Positions 25,366 to 31,204 of a DNA stretch of 32,972 nucleotides are shown piece by piece; within the stretch, counting starts at the first letter, position 1; each line of letters starts with the position of its first letter. The stretch covers positions 1 through 32,972 of the IMG/VR virus record IMGVR_UViG_3300038701_001854; one strand, 5' to 3'. Source of the DNA: a virus. Under the pieces are notes generated by a model, which saw nothing but the letters and a program-made list of their open reading frames with translations, searched no databases and was not told the DNA's origin. Position numbers and translations under genes: made by a program.

Positions 25366-26523
25366 CTAGGTGCGTAGTGATGGATAGTGAAATTCGGTCG
25401 GAGCAAGTCCGACACGCCATGCTTGAGCATGTTTGACGGTCTTGATTTGATTGTTGGTTATTTCGCAAACGGGCGGAACAGCTTCCACTATGGTTCCGTT
25501 TCTTGGACACTCAGCCTTGAGGTATATTCCCGGATCAGGCAGGCCATCGAGCCAGACTCGAAGCAATTCGCCCTTTTGTGGGTCAGGATCGCTGTCAATG
25601 ACTTCGTGCTGAAGTTTGTCGAGCATATGGGCCATGCCTAAAATACCAATTCCAGCCGCGCGCTGTTCGGTGCTTTCGACTCTCAACACATCTTCTGGAG
25701 TTACAGTATCGGGCGACAGTATCCATTGATCTGGAACCCGCACCCCGTGATGAGCGCAGACCGTATATCCGTCACTCCATTCCAATGCTGCGCGCCCCTC
25801 ACCATGTAATCTAAGTTCTTCATCAAAACCAATGTAGCGCGGCCTGTCAGACACAATAGCAACATCTGAATAAAGAAAAGCAACGCCGCACTCACGCGAG
25901 TAGGTCAGATACGCATCAAGCCAGGCATTTTGCCTGTCAGTTAGCTCACACCCCACATGACGCCCAAAGCTATAATATGCCAGCCAATGGCCGTCAAGAC
26001 CGGCGCCAAACGCAAGGCCATCAAACTTTTTTAGCTGATCCCAGAGCTGATCCCAGAGCTGAGTCCCAAGCTGAGCCCCAAGCTGAGCCCAGAGCTGATC
26101 CCTGAGCTGATCCCAGAGCTGATCCCTGAGCTGAGTCCTGAGCTGATCCCCGAGCTGAGCCCTGAGCTGAGTCCCAAGCTGATCCCAGAGCTGATCCCAG
26201 AGCTGATCCCTGAGCTGATCCCAGAGCTGATCCCAGAGCTGAGTCCCAAGCTGAGTCCCAAGCTGATCCCCGAGCTGAGCCCTGAGCTGAGCCCCCTTGT
26301 CCAAACTTAGAAAACTTCGCATTAACTGCGCTTGCATCGGAGATTGAGCGAATAACACTAAACGTGGTGAAGGAAGGTCAACAGAATTGTAAAGAGCTAT
26401 CACAGATTCCCTTGCTTTTGCCTCATCTATTGTATCTGTTCGTAAAGCCTCTGAACGAAAACGCTCACGCCAAACCGGAATAAGGGCCTCTTGCTCTGCG
26501 GTCAGTTTTGTAATCTTGGACAT
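25366..26523 (-). CDS. QLxx tetrapeptide-repeat protein with DUF6745-like domain
   Basis: A 385-residue protein. Residues 1-78 form a helical N-terminus. Residues 79-166 consist of 22 tandem tetrads QLxx (QLWD, QLRD, QLGT, QLGD). Residues 167-385 are a globular domain (FDGLAFGAGLDGHWLAYYSF, DRPRYIGFDEELRLHGEGRA, DGYTVCAHHGVRVPDQWI) resembling DUF6745. The repeat would form a long amphipathic helix or coiled coil with Leu every fourth residue. Its ATG lies in the conserved GAGGTCGCGTAATG junction. No function is established. Confidence 0.8.
   Translation of the reverse strand: MSKITKLTAEQEALIPVWRERFRSEALRTDTIDEAKARESVIALYNSVDLPSPRLVLFAQSPMQAQLMRSFLSLDKGAQLRAQLGDQLGTQLGTQLWDQLWDQLRDQLWDQLWDQLGTQLRAQLGDQLRTQLRDQLWDQLRDQLWAQLGAQLGTQLWDQLWDQLKKFDGLAFGAGLDGHWLAYYSFGRHVGCELTDRQNAWLDAYLTYSRECGVAFLYSDVAIVSDRPRYIGFDEELRLHGEGRAALEWSDGYTVCAHHGVRVPDQWILSPDTVTPEDVLRVESTEQRAAGIGILGMAHMLDKLQHEVIDSDPDPQKGELLRVWLDGLPDPGIYLKAECPRNGTIVEAVPPVCEITNNQIKTVKHAQAWRVGLAPTEFHYPSLRT
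26026..26289 (-). repeat. 22 tandem 12-bp repeats encoding QLxx
   Basis: The 12-base unit, CAGCTC or CAGCTT followed by two variable codons, is repeated 22 times without gaps inside the preceding gene. Many units are identical at the DNA level, so unequal recombination or slippage can change copy number in steps of four residues without losing frame. Confidence 0.9.
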
Positions 26524-27314
26524 TACGCGACCTCCCGCCCATTAGGAACAAGCCACTCATTAACCCACTCAAGAGCCAGCTTTGCCGCATAACCCCCGCC
26601 AGTGTCATCCGTGGGTTTATCTCCTTTTGATATCATCATGAACCAGCGCTCAGACGGGTTGTTACTGTTTTTCGGCAGAGTAACAACGTCCACACCTCGT
26701 ATATTGGCGATAGTGCCGATAAGACATGCGCATTCACCAGAATACACTGATCCATTGACGCGCCCTTCACGCAAAGCCTTTGCGACTCCAGAAGCCTCCT
26801 TTGGATTTTCTGTTAACGTCATCCATAAGCAAGATTTGAATGCGCGAAGGTCGGCACCGCGAAGGTCGGCACCGCTAAGGTCGGCATCGCGAAGGTCGGC
26901 ACCGCTAAGGTTGGCACCGCTAAGGTCGGCACCGCGAAGGTCGGCACCGCTAAGGTTGGCGCCGCTAAGGTTGGCACCGCTAAGGTTGGCACCGCTAAGG
27001 TTGGCATAGCTAAGGTAGGCACCGCGAAGGTAGGCACCGCTAAGGTTGGCACCGCTAAGGTTGGCACCGCTAAGGTCGGCACCGCTAAGGTTGGCGCCGC
27101 TAAGGTTGGCACCGCGAAGGTTGGCATAGCTAAGGTCGGCACCGCGAAGGTCGGCACCGCGAAGGTCGGCACCGCTAAGGTCGGCATCGTTTTTTAACGC
27201 CCACCTTACAGCCAGCCCAAGCTTTACTGAATGGCTGGCAGATTCATTACAATCTATTTCGGCTGTGAATTTAACCTCACCTGACCACCTTGATTTAACT
27301 TCAAACTTTAACAT
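26523..27314 (-). CDS. Pentapeptide-repeat protein with C-terminal domain
   Basis: A 263-residue protein. Residues 1-43 are a small N-terminal domain. Residues 44-158 are 23 pentapeptides of the form A(D/N/Y)LxG, which should fold into a right-handed quadrilateral beta-helix of about six coils. Residues 159-263 form a separate domain ([40 protein letters not shown]). Pentapeptide proteins such as MfpA and Qnr mimic DNA and protect or inhibit gyrase; that role is only a possibility here. Both borders carry the conserved GAGGTCGCGTAATG junction. Confidence 0.88.
26841..27185 (-). repeat. 23 tandem 15-bp pentapeptide repeats
   Basis: Twenty-three in-frame 15-base units encode A(D/N)LSG or A(D/N)LRG. 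Identical units occur repeatedly, for example in the runs around 26930-27000 and 27040-27100, implying recent amplification. Confidence 0.9.
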
Positions 27315-28252
27315 TACGCGACCTCCACAAGCTTTCCGCCTTGTAATGTGTAATAGGTGTCAGGCCTCACTTTACCGCGCCTCTTGGCGATTCCTGCAAA
27401 CACATGAATGATTTCCATGTTATTACTGCGCTCAACTAAGCAAATAGCGCTACCCTCGCCAGCTTTAGCTTTTGCTTGATAGCCGGACGCTATCGCTATG
27501 CTGTGCTCGCCCCCTACACTGGCCGCAGACTGATCGCCTGTGTTGGTGGCCGCAGACCGATCGCCTGTGTTGGTGGCCGCAGACTGATCGCCTGTGTTGG
27601 TGGCCGCAGACTGATCGCCTGTGTTGGTGGCCGCAGACCAATGGCCTGTGTTGGTGGCCGCAGACTGATGGCCTGTGTTGGTGGCCGCAGACTGATGGCC
27701 TGTGTTGGTGGCCGCAGACTGATCGCCTGTGTTGGTGGCCGCAGACCGATCGCCTGTGTTGGTGGCCGCAGACTGATGGCCTGTGTTGGTGGCCGCAGAC
27801 CGATCGCCTGTGTTGGTGGCCGCAGACCGATCGCCTGTGTTGGTGGCCGCAGACCGATCGCCTGTGTTGGTGGCCGCAGACCGATCGCCTGTGTTGGACT
27901 CTGTCTTACTGTCGGCAATTTTAGACAAAATGTAATCAACGCCACGTTGAACAAGTTCAGGGATAGTCAACTCGGCTCTTATAGTGATCTCTGCTGACGC
28001 AAGCTTGGTGTCGTAACTGTGATTCTTAATGTCTCCACCCAACTCCACTAATGCGAAACGGCTACGGCCTGGCTCGTAATACGCCCAAACCTCAAACGGA
28101 TGCTCACAGGAATGGAAGCCGCTATGGCATGGGAGCACCCCCCCTTCATGCGTATAGGTTTTCCCAATCTCATATTGGTATCCGCGACACCGTAAGTTTT
28201 CATCAAAACCCTTGAAGGCAATAACGGGATTCTTTTCAGTCTTGCCAGCCAT
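27314..28252 (-). CDS. DUF7666-like protein with 14 nonapeptide repeats
   Basis: A 312-residue protein. Residues 8-112 ([40 protein letters not shown]) resemble the DUF7666 domain. Residues 120-245 are 14 exact-length repeats NTGxxSAAT. The next part ([20 protein letters not shown]) is similar to YadA-type head repeats, so the array probably forms a left-handed beta roll. The C-terminus ([18 protein letters not shown]) is a small cap. No signal peptide is present, so it should be cytoplasmic. Its ATG lies in the conserved junction. Confidence 0.82.
27518..27895 (-). repeat. 14 tandem 27-bp repeats encoding NTGxxSAAT
   Basis: Fourteen direct repeats of exactly 27 bases without spacers, nearly identical except at the two codons after Gly (DR, DQ, HQ, HW). 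Several adjacent units are identical. The absence of spacers excludes a CRISPR array. Confidence 0.92.
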
Positions 28253-28578: not shown

Positions 28579-28607
28579 GTGGTACAAAATGTACAATCAA
28601 TAGTCAA
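28579..28607 (-). promoter_or_regulatory. pL-like promoter of the leftward early operon
   Basis: On the reverse strand, -35 TTGACT (28602-28607) and -10 TACCAC (28579-28584) are 17 bases apart. An operator covers the spacer and -10, and a second lies directly upstream of the -35. Geometry equals that of the rightward promoter (operator starts 13 bases after the first T of TTGACT). The predicted start near 28572 leaves a leader of about 20 bases. The -10 itself is weak. Confidence 0.6.
28582..28594. promoter_or_regulatory. Left operator 1
   Basis: GTACAAAATGTAC, half-sites GTACA and TGTAC separated by three bases. It overlaps the -10 of the leftward promoter and is identical to left operator 2. 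Confidence 0.75.
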
Positions 28608-28620
28608 GTACAAAATGTAC
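28608..28620. promoter_or_regulatory. Left operator 2
   Basis: A second exact GTACAAAATGTAC, 26 bases centre to centre from the first and adjacent to the -35. The spacing allows cooperative binding by repressor dimers on the same helix face to within about half a turn. Confidence 0.75.
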
Positions 28621-29344: not shown

Positions 29345-29350
29345 GTGCAT

Positions 29351-29356
29351 TTAGTA
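29351..29356 (-). promoter_or_regulatory. pRM-like promoter -10 for the repressor
   Basis: TACTAA on the reverse strand, with no good -35 at 17 bases, as expected of an activated maintenance promoter. The predicted start falls at about 29344, the repressor ATG, so the mRNA may be leaderless. A GTACA half-site overlaps it (29354-29358). Confidence 0.4.
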
Positions 29357-29368
29357 CAAATAAATCTT

Positions 29369-29381
29369 GTACATGGGGTAT
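29369..29381. promoter_or_regulatory. Degenerate right operator 2
   Basis: GTACATGGGGTAT matches GTACATTTTGTAC at 9 of 13 positions and lies immediately upstream of the rightward -35, the same place as left operator 2 relative to its promoter (one base shift). Confidence 0.45.
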
Positions 29382-29409
29382 TGACTTGAGGTGGTGCAAA
29401 ATGTACAAG
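29381..29409 (+). promoter_or_regulatory. pR-like promoter of the rightward operon
   Basis: TTGACT (29381-29386), 17-base spacer, TACAAG (29404-29409). The operator GTGCAAAATGTAC overlaps spacer and -10. Transcription should start at about 29416-29417, that is at the ATG of the first gene. Confidence 0.65.
29394..29406. promoter_or_regulatory. Right operator 1
   Basis: GTGCAAAATGTAC differs from the left operators at one base. It overlaps the -10 of the rightward promoter. Confidence 0.7.
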
Positions 29410-29416
29410 ATGTCCC

Positions 29417-29650
29417 ATGAAAACATTTTCAGAAATATTATCTCTATACTCTAGCCCCGGCGAGTTAGCGTCAGACCTTGGAGTTGAATACCAGGCCGCC
29501 CGAAAAATGATTGACCGCGCGAGCGTCCATCCTCGGCACTGGGTAAAACTTATAGCGGGTCTCAAAGCACGAAGCTCAGAGGTTGAAATGAATGACCTGC
29601 AAAGGCTTCGCCCAGACCTGTACCCGCACCTTGTTGAGACAACTGCATGA
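29417..29650 (+). CDS. Cro-like HTH regulator
   Basis: A 77-residue protein divergently transcribed from the repressor, the cro position. The HTH is in SPGELASDLGVEYQAARKMI followed by HPRHWVKLIAGLKA, of the small Cro/YdaS-like type. It should bind the same operators and favour lytic growth. No ribosome-binding site precedes the ATG, and the promoter predicts a start at or next to the ATG. It overlaps the next gene by ATGA. Confidence 0.75.
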   Translation: MKTFSEILSLYSSPGELASDLGVEYQAARKMIDRASVHPRHWVKLIAGLKARSSEVEMNDLQRLRPDLYPHLVETTA

Positions 29651-30150
29651 TTTACTTCATCACATGTAAAGAGGCGGGCAGAGTCAAGATTGGGTATACG
29701 TCTGGCTCTCTTTTGGGGCGGCTTCAAACCATAAGCACATCTAGCCCTTATCCGCTGGATGTTGCGGGGGTAATTCATGAGGGAACGTTGGGTGACGAGA
29801 AAGAGCTTCATAATAAGTTTTCTGACCTTCGGGTTCACAGGGAGTGGTTTTTGTGGGGCGATGAATTGAAGGCTTTTGTAGGGGCGGAGTGCTCGCCAAA
29901 TCCTTTAACGTTACCTAAAAAGCGTGATGCAAAAGACCTGCCGTTCCCTGCAAATATCATCAAATCCTTAGGTGGAGCTGATGCTGTGGCGGAGATAGCC
30001 GGGGTTGCGGTTCCAACTGTGTATTGCTGGCAAAACAGAAAGCCGTTCAAAATTCCCTCCGCTCATTGGGCGTCGCTTCTTGCAAGCGCTAAGTCCAGCG
30101 GCGTTGATTTAACGGCTGATGACTTCATGAGCCTTGAGGCCTCCGCATAA
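29647..30150 (+). CDS. T5orf172/GIY-YIG-like domain fused to HTH
   Basis: A 167-residue two-domain protein. Residues 1-78 resemble the T5orf172/MUG113 branch of GIY-YIG nucleases: IYFITC, RVKIGYTSG, GRLQTISTSSPYPLDVAGVI, EKELHNKF and HREWF. Residues about 100-150 (IIKSLGGADAVAEIAGVAVP, TVYCWQNRKPFKIPSAHWAS) are an HTH of the same kind as the neighbouring regulators. This could be a site-directed DNA nuclease or a regulator that retains the fold. It overlaps its neighbours at ATGA and TAATG. Confidence 0.75.
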   Translation: MIYFITCKEAGRVKIGYTSGSLLGRLQTISTSSPYPLDVAGVIHEGTLGDEKELHNKFSDLRVHREWFLWGDELKAFVGAECSPNPLTLPKKRDAKDLPFPANIIKSLGGADAVAEIAGVAVPTVYCWQNRKPFKIPSAHWASLLASAKSSGVDLTADDFMSLEASA

Positions 30151-30719: not shown

Positions 30720-30881
30720 TTAAAGCATTGGCCTTCCCTGTGGTTTTTTATTCTCTCTTCGCCGCCACCCTTCAATCCAAGGGTCGCCGCGTTGTTTCTG
30801 CATTTTGTACTCGAATAATGAAATCACTATCGCTTCCCGGCTTTGTGAGTTCGTTTGGTTCGTTTGTGTCTCTGTTTCCAT
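30720..30881 (-). CDS. Possible 53-residue reverse-strand gene
   Basis: From ATG 30881 to TAA 30720 the reverse strand encodes a polar, plausible protein (SREAIVISLFEYKMQKQRGD, then PWIEGWRRRENKKPQGRPML). The composition reads as real coding sequence, unlike the overlapping plus-strand frame. No ribosome-binding site precedes the ATG, and the frame continues upstream to an ATG at 30917. Divergent from the next gene. Confidence 0.35.
   Translation of the reverse strand: METETQTNQTNSQSREAIVISLFEYKMQKQRGDPWIEGWRRRENKKPQGRPML
30792..30819 (+). promoter_or_regulatory. Possible operator-bearing promoter before the third HTH gene
   Basis: TTGTTT (30792-30797) and AATAAT (30814-30819) are 16 bases apart. 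The spacer contains CTGCATTTTGTAC (30798-30810), 11 of 13 matches to the operator in its other orientation. It could give repressor-controlled transcription of the gene at 30896. Confidence 0.35.
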
Positions 30882-30895
30882 GTTGGAGAAACTAG

Positions 30896-31204
30896 ATGGG
30901 AACGAACCAGATGACATTACCGTACAATGCGGATGATCCGCAATTTTTTGCGAAAATATTGCAAAGTAAAAAAGAACGCTTTGTTCAGCTTTGCGTGAAG
31001 TGGGACAGTGCCGAGGATTTAGCGTCTGACCTTGCTGAGATTGGTTATGAGGTAAGCCCTCGAACTGTAACCAACTGGCGCAATCGTTCATTTAAGCGCG
31101 TACCGTATGCGGCTGTTCAGGCTGTGAAGTACGCAATTGAAATCAAGCGTCAACGCCAAGCCGAAATGTGGGCGGCTTCATTAAAGGAGGCTCAAGCCCT
31201 GTGA
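30896..31204 (+). CDS. HTH DNA-binding regulator
   Basis: A 102-residue protein. An HTH is visible in SAEDLASDLAEIGYEVSPRT followed by VTNWRNRSFKRVPYAAVQAV, similar to the Cro-like protein and to the HTH of the nuclease fusion. The C-terminus is a charged helix (EIKRQRQAEMWAASLKEAQA). GGAG lies upstream of the ATG. Candidate for a CII-like or late regulator, or a replication-linked DNA-binding protein. Confidence 0.72.
   Translation: MGTNQMTLPYNADDPQFFAKILQSKKERFVQLCVKWDSAEDLASDLAEIGYEVSPRTVTNWRNRSFKRVPYAAVQAVKYAIEIKRQRQAEMWAASLKEAQAL

Follow-up and report, generated by a model that had tools for sequence, protein, structure and literature searches.

The window examined here is a virus record of 32,972 bases, analyzed over its whole length, in which a gene for a two-domain protein directly follows a Cro-like gene (Table 1). 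The setting is an ordinary immunity region. A CI-type repressor, identified by its peptidase domain (Peptidase_S24, E 7e-12) and its protein family (phrog_4 transcriptional repressor, E 1.4e-22), diverges from the Cro-like gene, and the fusion is second in the rightward operon. A preliminary description of this DNA had proposed that the fusion is coupled to the Cro-like gene, and this is borne out by the ATGA at 29647-29650, in which the stop of the one gene and the start of the other overlap. Sites resembling GTACAAAATGTAC, with two mismatches at most, number six in the window versus 0.51 expected.

Table 1. Features of the immunity region and of the fusion gene in the window
Feature	Positions	Strand	Basis or remark
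Putative left operators	28582..28620		GTACAAAATGTAC twice without mismatch, ahead of the leftward operon
Divergent CI-type repressor, HTH + S24 peptidase-like domain, 229 aa	28661..29350	-	Pfam, phrog_4
Putative operators between CI and Cro	29345..29415	.	GTACAAAATGTAC-like sites and inverted repeat ATCTTGTACAT / ATGTACAAGAT
GTACAAAATGTAC-like sites, putative operators	29345-29357 (-), 29394-29406, 29403-29415		
Stand-alone Cro-like protein, 77 aa	29417..29650	+	Holds the Cro position
GIY-YIG (MUG113/T5orf172) + Cro-like carph-isopro HTH fusion, 167 aa	29647..30150	+	ORF, Pfam, NCBIfam, AlphaFold (mean pLDDT 90)
MUG113/T5orf172 domain, residues 2-69	29650..29853	+	Pfam; domain-alone model pLDDT 97
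Low-confidence joint between domains, residues 83-100	29893..29946	+	pLDDT 54 for block 91-100
Cro-like five-helix HTH, carph-isopro type, residues 102-167	29950..30147	+	NCBIfam, fold search, Cro comparison

The affinities of the genes around the fusion conflict. The closest relative of the window Cro is a small protein that Rhizobium phage RHph_N28_2 encodes next to its S24 repressor (30.4 bits), and this Cro is nearest to Rhizobium phages overall, whereas the best matches of the repressor and portal come from cyanobacterial phages (34-39% identity); a host assignment based on neighboring genes was thus set aside. Several other features of the region deserve mention in their own right. An ORF at 30896-31204 (+), about 90 bases past an operator-like site at 30798-30810, contains the HTH-like stretch TVTNWRNRSFKRVP; it is possibly the true CII-position regulator, and it scores only about 5 bits against the fused HTH. 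On the leftward side, 27314-28252 (-) encodes a DUF7666 protein (E 7e-33) in which the unit TNTGDRSAA recurs about a dozen times in tandem, and a DUF7666 protein with other tandem repeats occupies the equivalent place in the immunity region of the Roseomonas plasmid p1-AD2 (L005:3320-4282). Two adjoining repeat proteins, at 25366-26523 and 26523-27314 (-), carry tandem DQLxxQL heptad-like repeats or pentapeptide repeats (ANLSG), and a few hundred bases of the second share about 85% DNA identity with Acinetobacter phages. PADLOC returned nothing beyond a weak hit to PDC-S57, a candidate family.

Both halves of the fusion are recovered by profile methods, as the preliminary description had anticipated. 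The T5orf172 signature that it placed in the first half is confirmed over residues 2-69 by two Pfam families, MUG113 (E 8.9e-10, 39.5 bits, cut-off 22.3) and T5orf172 (E 3.5e-7, 31.1 bits, cut-off 20), so that the product passes the curated profile cut-offs for the MUG113/T5orf172 branch of the GIY-YIG superfamily. Its putative active site, composed of residues that are invariant or nearly so in alignments, comprises Y3, K14-I-G16, R25, E51, H55, and E66-W-F68. Residues 102-156 match the NCBIfam carph-isopro family NF046037 at 38.5 bits, just over the cut-off of 38, and more weakly the Pfam families YdaS and P22 Cro; relatives score 48.9 (L300), 31.1 (L069), and 26.0 bits (L185) against the carph-isopro profile.

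Structural modeling is in keeping with this partition. The AlphaFold model of the full protein, built with 17 relatives, consists of two confident domains connected by a loose joint, namely, a mixed strand/helix N-terminal domain (residues 1-81) and a C-terminal domain of five helices (residues ~101-166). In fold searches the C-terminal half matches the Cro of prophage Xfaso 1 (3bd1; Z 6.8, rmsd 2.8 over 64 residues) and P22 Cro (1rzs; Z 6.1, rmsd 2.6 over 59 residues) and thus has the Cro-type HTH fold; Xfaso Cro is the nearest among the biologically sensible matches, with two unrelated phosphonate-enzyme chains scoring equally. A sequence profile built from the fusions likewise finds Xfaso Cro first (3bd1, E 3.4e-6). 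Both of these Cro proteins stand alone and, unlike the fusion, carry no nuclease domain. The fusion, for its part, is no small stand-alone repressor divergent from CI, being encoded by the second gene of the operon with a nuclease domain attached. For the 82-residue GIY-YIG domain alone, no convincing match came from either Foldseek or VIA-align 2, an absence that is uninformative; its strands and helices are predicted in an order compatible with GIY-YIG. The assignment of the nuclease half therefore rests on the Pfam matches and the conserved residues.

The preliminary description had spoken of an unusual combination, which in one sense is wrong: temperate phages carry the gene pair repeatedly, as a module with the layout CI / Cro / GIY-YIG-X. 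A small HTH gene followed directly by a GIY-YIG gene, in the order of the window, is present on the Roseomonas plasmid p1-AD2 and in Rhizobium phage RHph_I1_23, and many IMG/VR contigs carry a Cro-like gene followed by a GIY-YIG gene. In most coupled loci with enough sequence, a divergent HTH or CI-like ORF adjoins the Cro gene. Our Cro-coupled set contains 41 accepted copies, including that of the window; they were gathered with a strict DNA pattern, which in the first IMG/VR search covered the domain only and in later ones also required an ATGA start, so that all counts describe samples. A scan free of the overlap requirement found 12 of 37 genes with the N-terminal domain to be Cro-coupled. 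The overlap pattern yielded only two loci in genome contigs, and a variant start pattern, used in one search, gave no match. In a tree of the nuclease domain, which has few columns and many open forks, the Cro-coupled copies cluster, requiring 13 label changes as opposed to 37.4 for shuffled labels.

Related genes in other settings were also seen. Eight loci (L068, L136, L199, L204, L208, L213, L222, and L223) carry GIY-YIG genes that end in an XRE-type HTH and occupy their own part of the tree; no coupling to a Cro gene was seen in these eight. In Citromicrobium phage RXM, the ribonucleotide reductase genes are directly preceded by a gene (L011:2495-2974) for a GIY-YIG protein whose C-terminal part may be an HTH.

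Across the 41 Cro-coupled copies, Tyr3, Lys14, Gly16, Arg25, Glu51, Glu66, and Trp67 show no variation, and 40 copies have His55; the search pattern prescribed Tyr3, the KIG block, and EWF but left Arg25, Glu51, and His55 free to vary. The Tyr, Arg, and Glu of a GIY-YIG active site are accordingly present as Y3, R25, and E51 in every copy, and the loss of catalytic residues across homologs that the preliminary description had named as the result that would speak against it was not observed. Such conservation is not what one would expect of an inactive nuclease retained as a scaffold. The notion of a dead nuclease turned regulator was ranked lower because the catalytic residues never vary among the 41 copies, and the fully conserved active site also weakens the earlier suggestion that a regulator descends from a nuclease.

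These observations bear on a broader possibility, that the protein is a transcription regulator at the CII position, attached to one of the phage's own promoters through its Cro-like domain, with the GIY-YIG domain acting only as a scaffold or an occasional nickase. The location of the gene directly behind cro and the Cro-like nature of its HTH are consistent with such a role, for which I-TevI, a GIY-YIG enzyme that is also an autorepressor, offers a precedent (PMC10448857). Against such a role, the active-site Tyr, Arg, and Glu persist in all 41 copies while the HTH is variable or missing, the opposite of what a regulator with a relic nuclease would lead one to expect, and nothing links the fused HTH to the switch of its own phage, as detailed below. 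We consider a regulatory role distinctly unlikely.

The preliminary description had also likened the C-terminal HTH to the upstream Cro. An HTH is indeed present, and both proteins touch the carph-isopro family, the neighboring Cro with 15.7 bits, under the cut-off of 38; their likeness to each other is weak, at about 6-6.5 bits and 16% identity. Considerably closer to the fused HTH are a stand-alone carph-isopro protein of a bacterial genome (L312, 31.3 bits) and the Cros of an IMG/VR contig (L094, 29.9 bits), of Sinorhizobium phage phi2LM21 (27.5 bits), and of Paracoccus phage Psul1 (25.8 bits). The resemblance to other phages' Cros extends to the IPSAHW motif of the fusion and to its recognition-helix region. 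There the fusion has PTVYCWQNR, to which TTVQGWRDR and STVQGWQDR correspond among the foreign Cros and QAARKMIDR corresponds in the neighboring one. The phi2LM21 and Psul1 Cros share the carph-isopro HTH and the TVxxW and IP motifs with the fused domain; unlike it, they stand alone, and they have no annotated GIY-YIG gene downstream. Peptide patterns run against viral contigs and genome contigs revealed no close relatives of the whole protein or of the locus, and a pattern joining GIY-YIG to IPxxHW had no match in viral contigs. A search with P0001 in 385 genomes of one class gave 12 matches; the ones inspected proved to be either nuclease domains or carph-isopro proteins standing alone, and the whole fusion was not found among them.

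The mismatch between the fused HTH and the neighboring Cro is not peculiar to the window. HTH-bearing ends, picked by eye, were found in 17 Cro-coupled copies, and the three HTH type profiles were trained on these same data; for the examples also scanned independently with Pfam and NCBIfam the results concur, with some matches under cut-off. At a threshold of at least 15 bits, the fused HTH matches its own Cro in just one of the 17 fusions and the Cro of another phage in 13, and the summed score of own pairings (56.3) is close to that of shuffled ones (51.8 +/- 25.0, P 0.39). The fused HTHs therefore share a pool with Cros and are unmatched to their own Cro; pairing with the own Cro is random, from which avoidance of self does not follow. 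L158 and L184 provide a reciprocal example, in which each fused HTH resembles the Cro of the other phage (31-32 bits) and not its own. Similarly, the fused domains of L091 and L109 are of the kind serving as Cro in L257 and L273, that of L267 is of the kind serving as Cro in L091 and L064, and that of L306 of the kind serving as Cro in L239 and L230. Among 11 pairs of phages with a common fused HTH, one pair also has the same Cro type, and L184 and L207 have the whole fused protein in common (63-72% identity) alongside unrelated Cros. An origin of the fused HTH as a duplicate of the own Cro was rejected for most fusions on the strength of the own-Cro scores; L162, where the own Cro is the best match of the fused HTH (11.8 bits), and more weakly L141, where the two are of one type, are still candidates.

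Beyond these 17, the C-terminal end varies. About half of the Cro-coupled genes have no recognizable HTH; what follows their nuclease domain is another region that recurs among them or next to nothing, and the HTH is thus one of several ends. Several fusions terminate in -AA, as stand-alone Cros do, for which reason whole cro genes seem to have been captured. Eleven loci (L064, L145, L233, L239, L242, L273, L280, L293, L299, L308, and L309) have in common a C-terminal region with an AGTFDxxxLPxP-like start that is not recognized as an HTH and is possibly a second kind of DNA-binding end. Judged by eye, the GIY-YIG domain of L253 is followed by a GapR/DUF2312-like region, and a similar gene lies downstream of a Cro homologous to the window Cro in RHph_N28_2 (L014:2719-3636).

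Could the HTH be nothing but a recombination scar, that is, the remains of a foreign cro fused in frame to the GIY-YIG gene by swaps of immunity regions, with the nuclease half alone mattering? The C-termini in -AA and the many coupled copies devoid of an HTH are what such a history would leave behind. Yet the HTH half appears to be under purifying selection: between L184 and L207, the one pair amenable to close measurement, dN/dS is ~0.12 for the nuclease half and ~0.09 for the C-terminal half (63% identity), ratios that are rough because dS is near saturation, and between L091 and L109 it is ~0.24 for the HTH half. The low L184/L207 values imply that, in this pair at least, selection maintains the HTH instead of leaving it to decay as a scar, and in the window the HTH is complete, with a high-confidence AlphaFold fold. 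We thus regard a scar as very improbable.

Taken together, we favor, at somewhat less than even confidence, an early lytic nuclease whose Cro-type domain of foreign specificity is aimed at the immunity region of a rival. The fusion and Cro would both be expressed from the rightward early operon; the fused domain would bind operators of a rival phage or prophage that relies on carph-isopro-type Cro/CI control; and the nuclease half would nick or cut the rival's immunity region, while the phage's own operators, which answer to another Cro and CI, would be spared. From the sequences we infer that the fusion cuts DNA, that its HTH directs the cut to operators, and that competing phages are the targets. 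Recognition of rival operators is suggested by Cro-domain resemblances of 25-45 bits, which are too distant for site prediction. The earlier idea of a sequence-directed nuclease acting at operator-like sites is the best-supported one, given the invariant residues and the Cro-type HTH. It requires amendment in one respect: the operators recognized are probably not those of the phage itself, because the fused HTH matches the neighboring Cro no better than chance. As about half of the coupled genes have no HTH, operator targeting is not the function of the whole family. Still more tentatively, we envision a widespread family in which temperate phages keep a GIY-YIG nuclease with a swappable foreign Cro domain behind cro, target the immunity regions of rivals, and thereby drive immunity types to diversify.

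A homing endonuclease of the immunity region would differ from an operator-directed nuclease mainly in who profits. It would cut a co-infecting phage that does not possess the gene, and repair would copy the CI-Cro-nuclease block across, making the captured foreign Cro domain both a homing device and a trace of past exchanges. The relative in Citromicrobium phage RXM fits this behavior, as it lies between nucleotide-metabolism genes, a frequent site of free-standing homing genes, and so does the free reassortment of C-terminal domains, Cro, and GIY-YIG domain. Moreover, T5orf172 proteins are a recognized class of phage homing nucleases found at exchange boundaries (PMC10448857). Against this, the coupled genes hold one position and the ATGA overlap across large divergence and cluster in the tree, which a domesticated gene fits better than a roaming one; we deem homing unlikely, though it is, with a CII-like regulatory role, one of the two main alternatives.

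If a nuclease armed with the Cro domain of a rival is indeed at work, immunity regions would be battlegrounds as well as repressor switches, and the conserved gene directly behind cro across diverse temperate phages would be accounted for. The great diversity of Cro and CI types would likewise gain a testable cause. Even with some other function, a Cro-coupled gene that combines an invariant nuclease with a freely swapped Cro-type domain is absent from the open-access papers that we found.

Two known systems frame this proposal. I-TevI and the T5orf172 homing genes resemble the fusion in joining GIY-YIG to a separate DNA-binding domain and in their modular exchange; unlike them, the fusion has a short, 69-residue domain in which KIG replaces YIG, lies outside introns, and keeps a fixed place behind cro. 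Closer in principle is Odn of phage ICP1, a T5orf172 nuclease whose RepA_N domain mimics the initiator of a satellite and which binds and cuts the satellite origin (PMC8263062). Odn-like nucleases have arisen more than once, with examples in coliphages Inny, Muut, and Mt1B1_P17 (PMC10448857). Both of the fusion's domains are already known, and the principle itself is known through Odn; among open-access papers we found no report of a Cro-type domain in an Odn-like role, of its fixed place behind cro, or of its reassortment relative to the own Cro. The fusion departs from Odn in its DNA-binding half, which is of the Cro/carph-isopro type instead of RepA_N, in its N-terminal nuclease domain of the short MUG113 form, and in the position of its gene behind cro in the immunity region. 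Odn aims at satellite origins, whereas the fusion would aim at temperate-phage operators, a reading that, if true, would carry the Odn principle beyond satellites and their origins, to the operators of temperate phages. Like Odn and its analogs, the fusion unites a T5orf172-class nuclease with a domain that is closer to the DNA-binding protein of another element than to its own (26-31 vs 6.5 bits), and in both the Arg and Glu are kept while the DNA-binding half is swapped between relatives.
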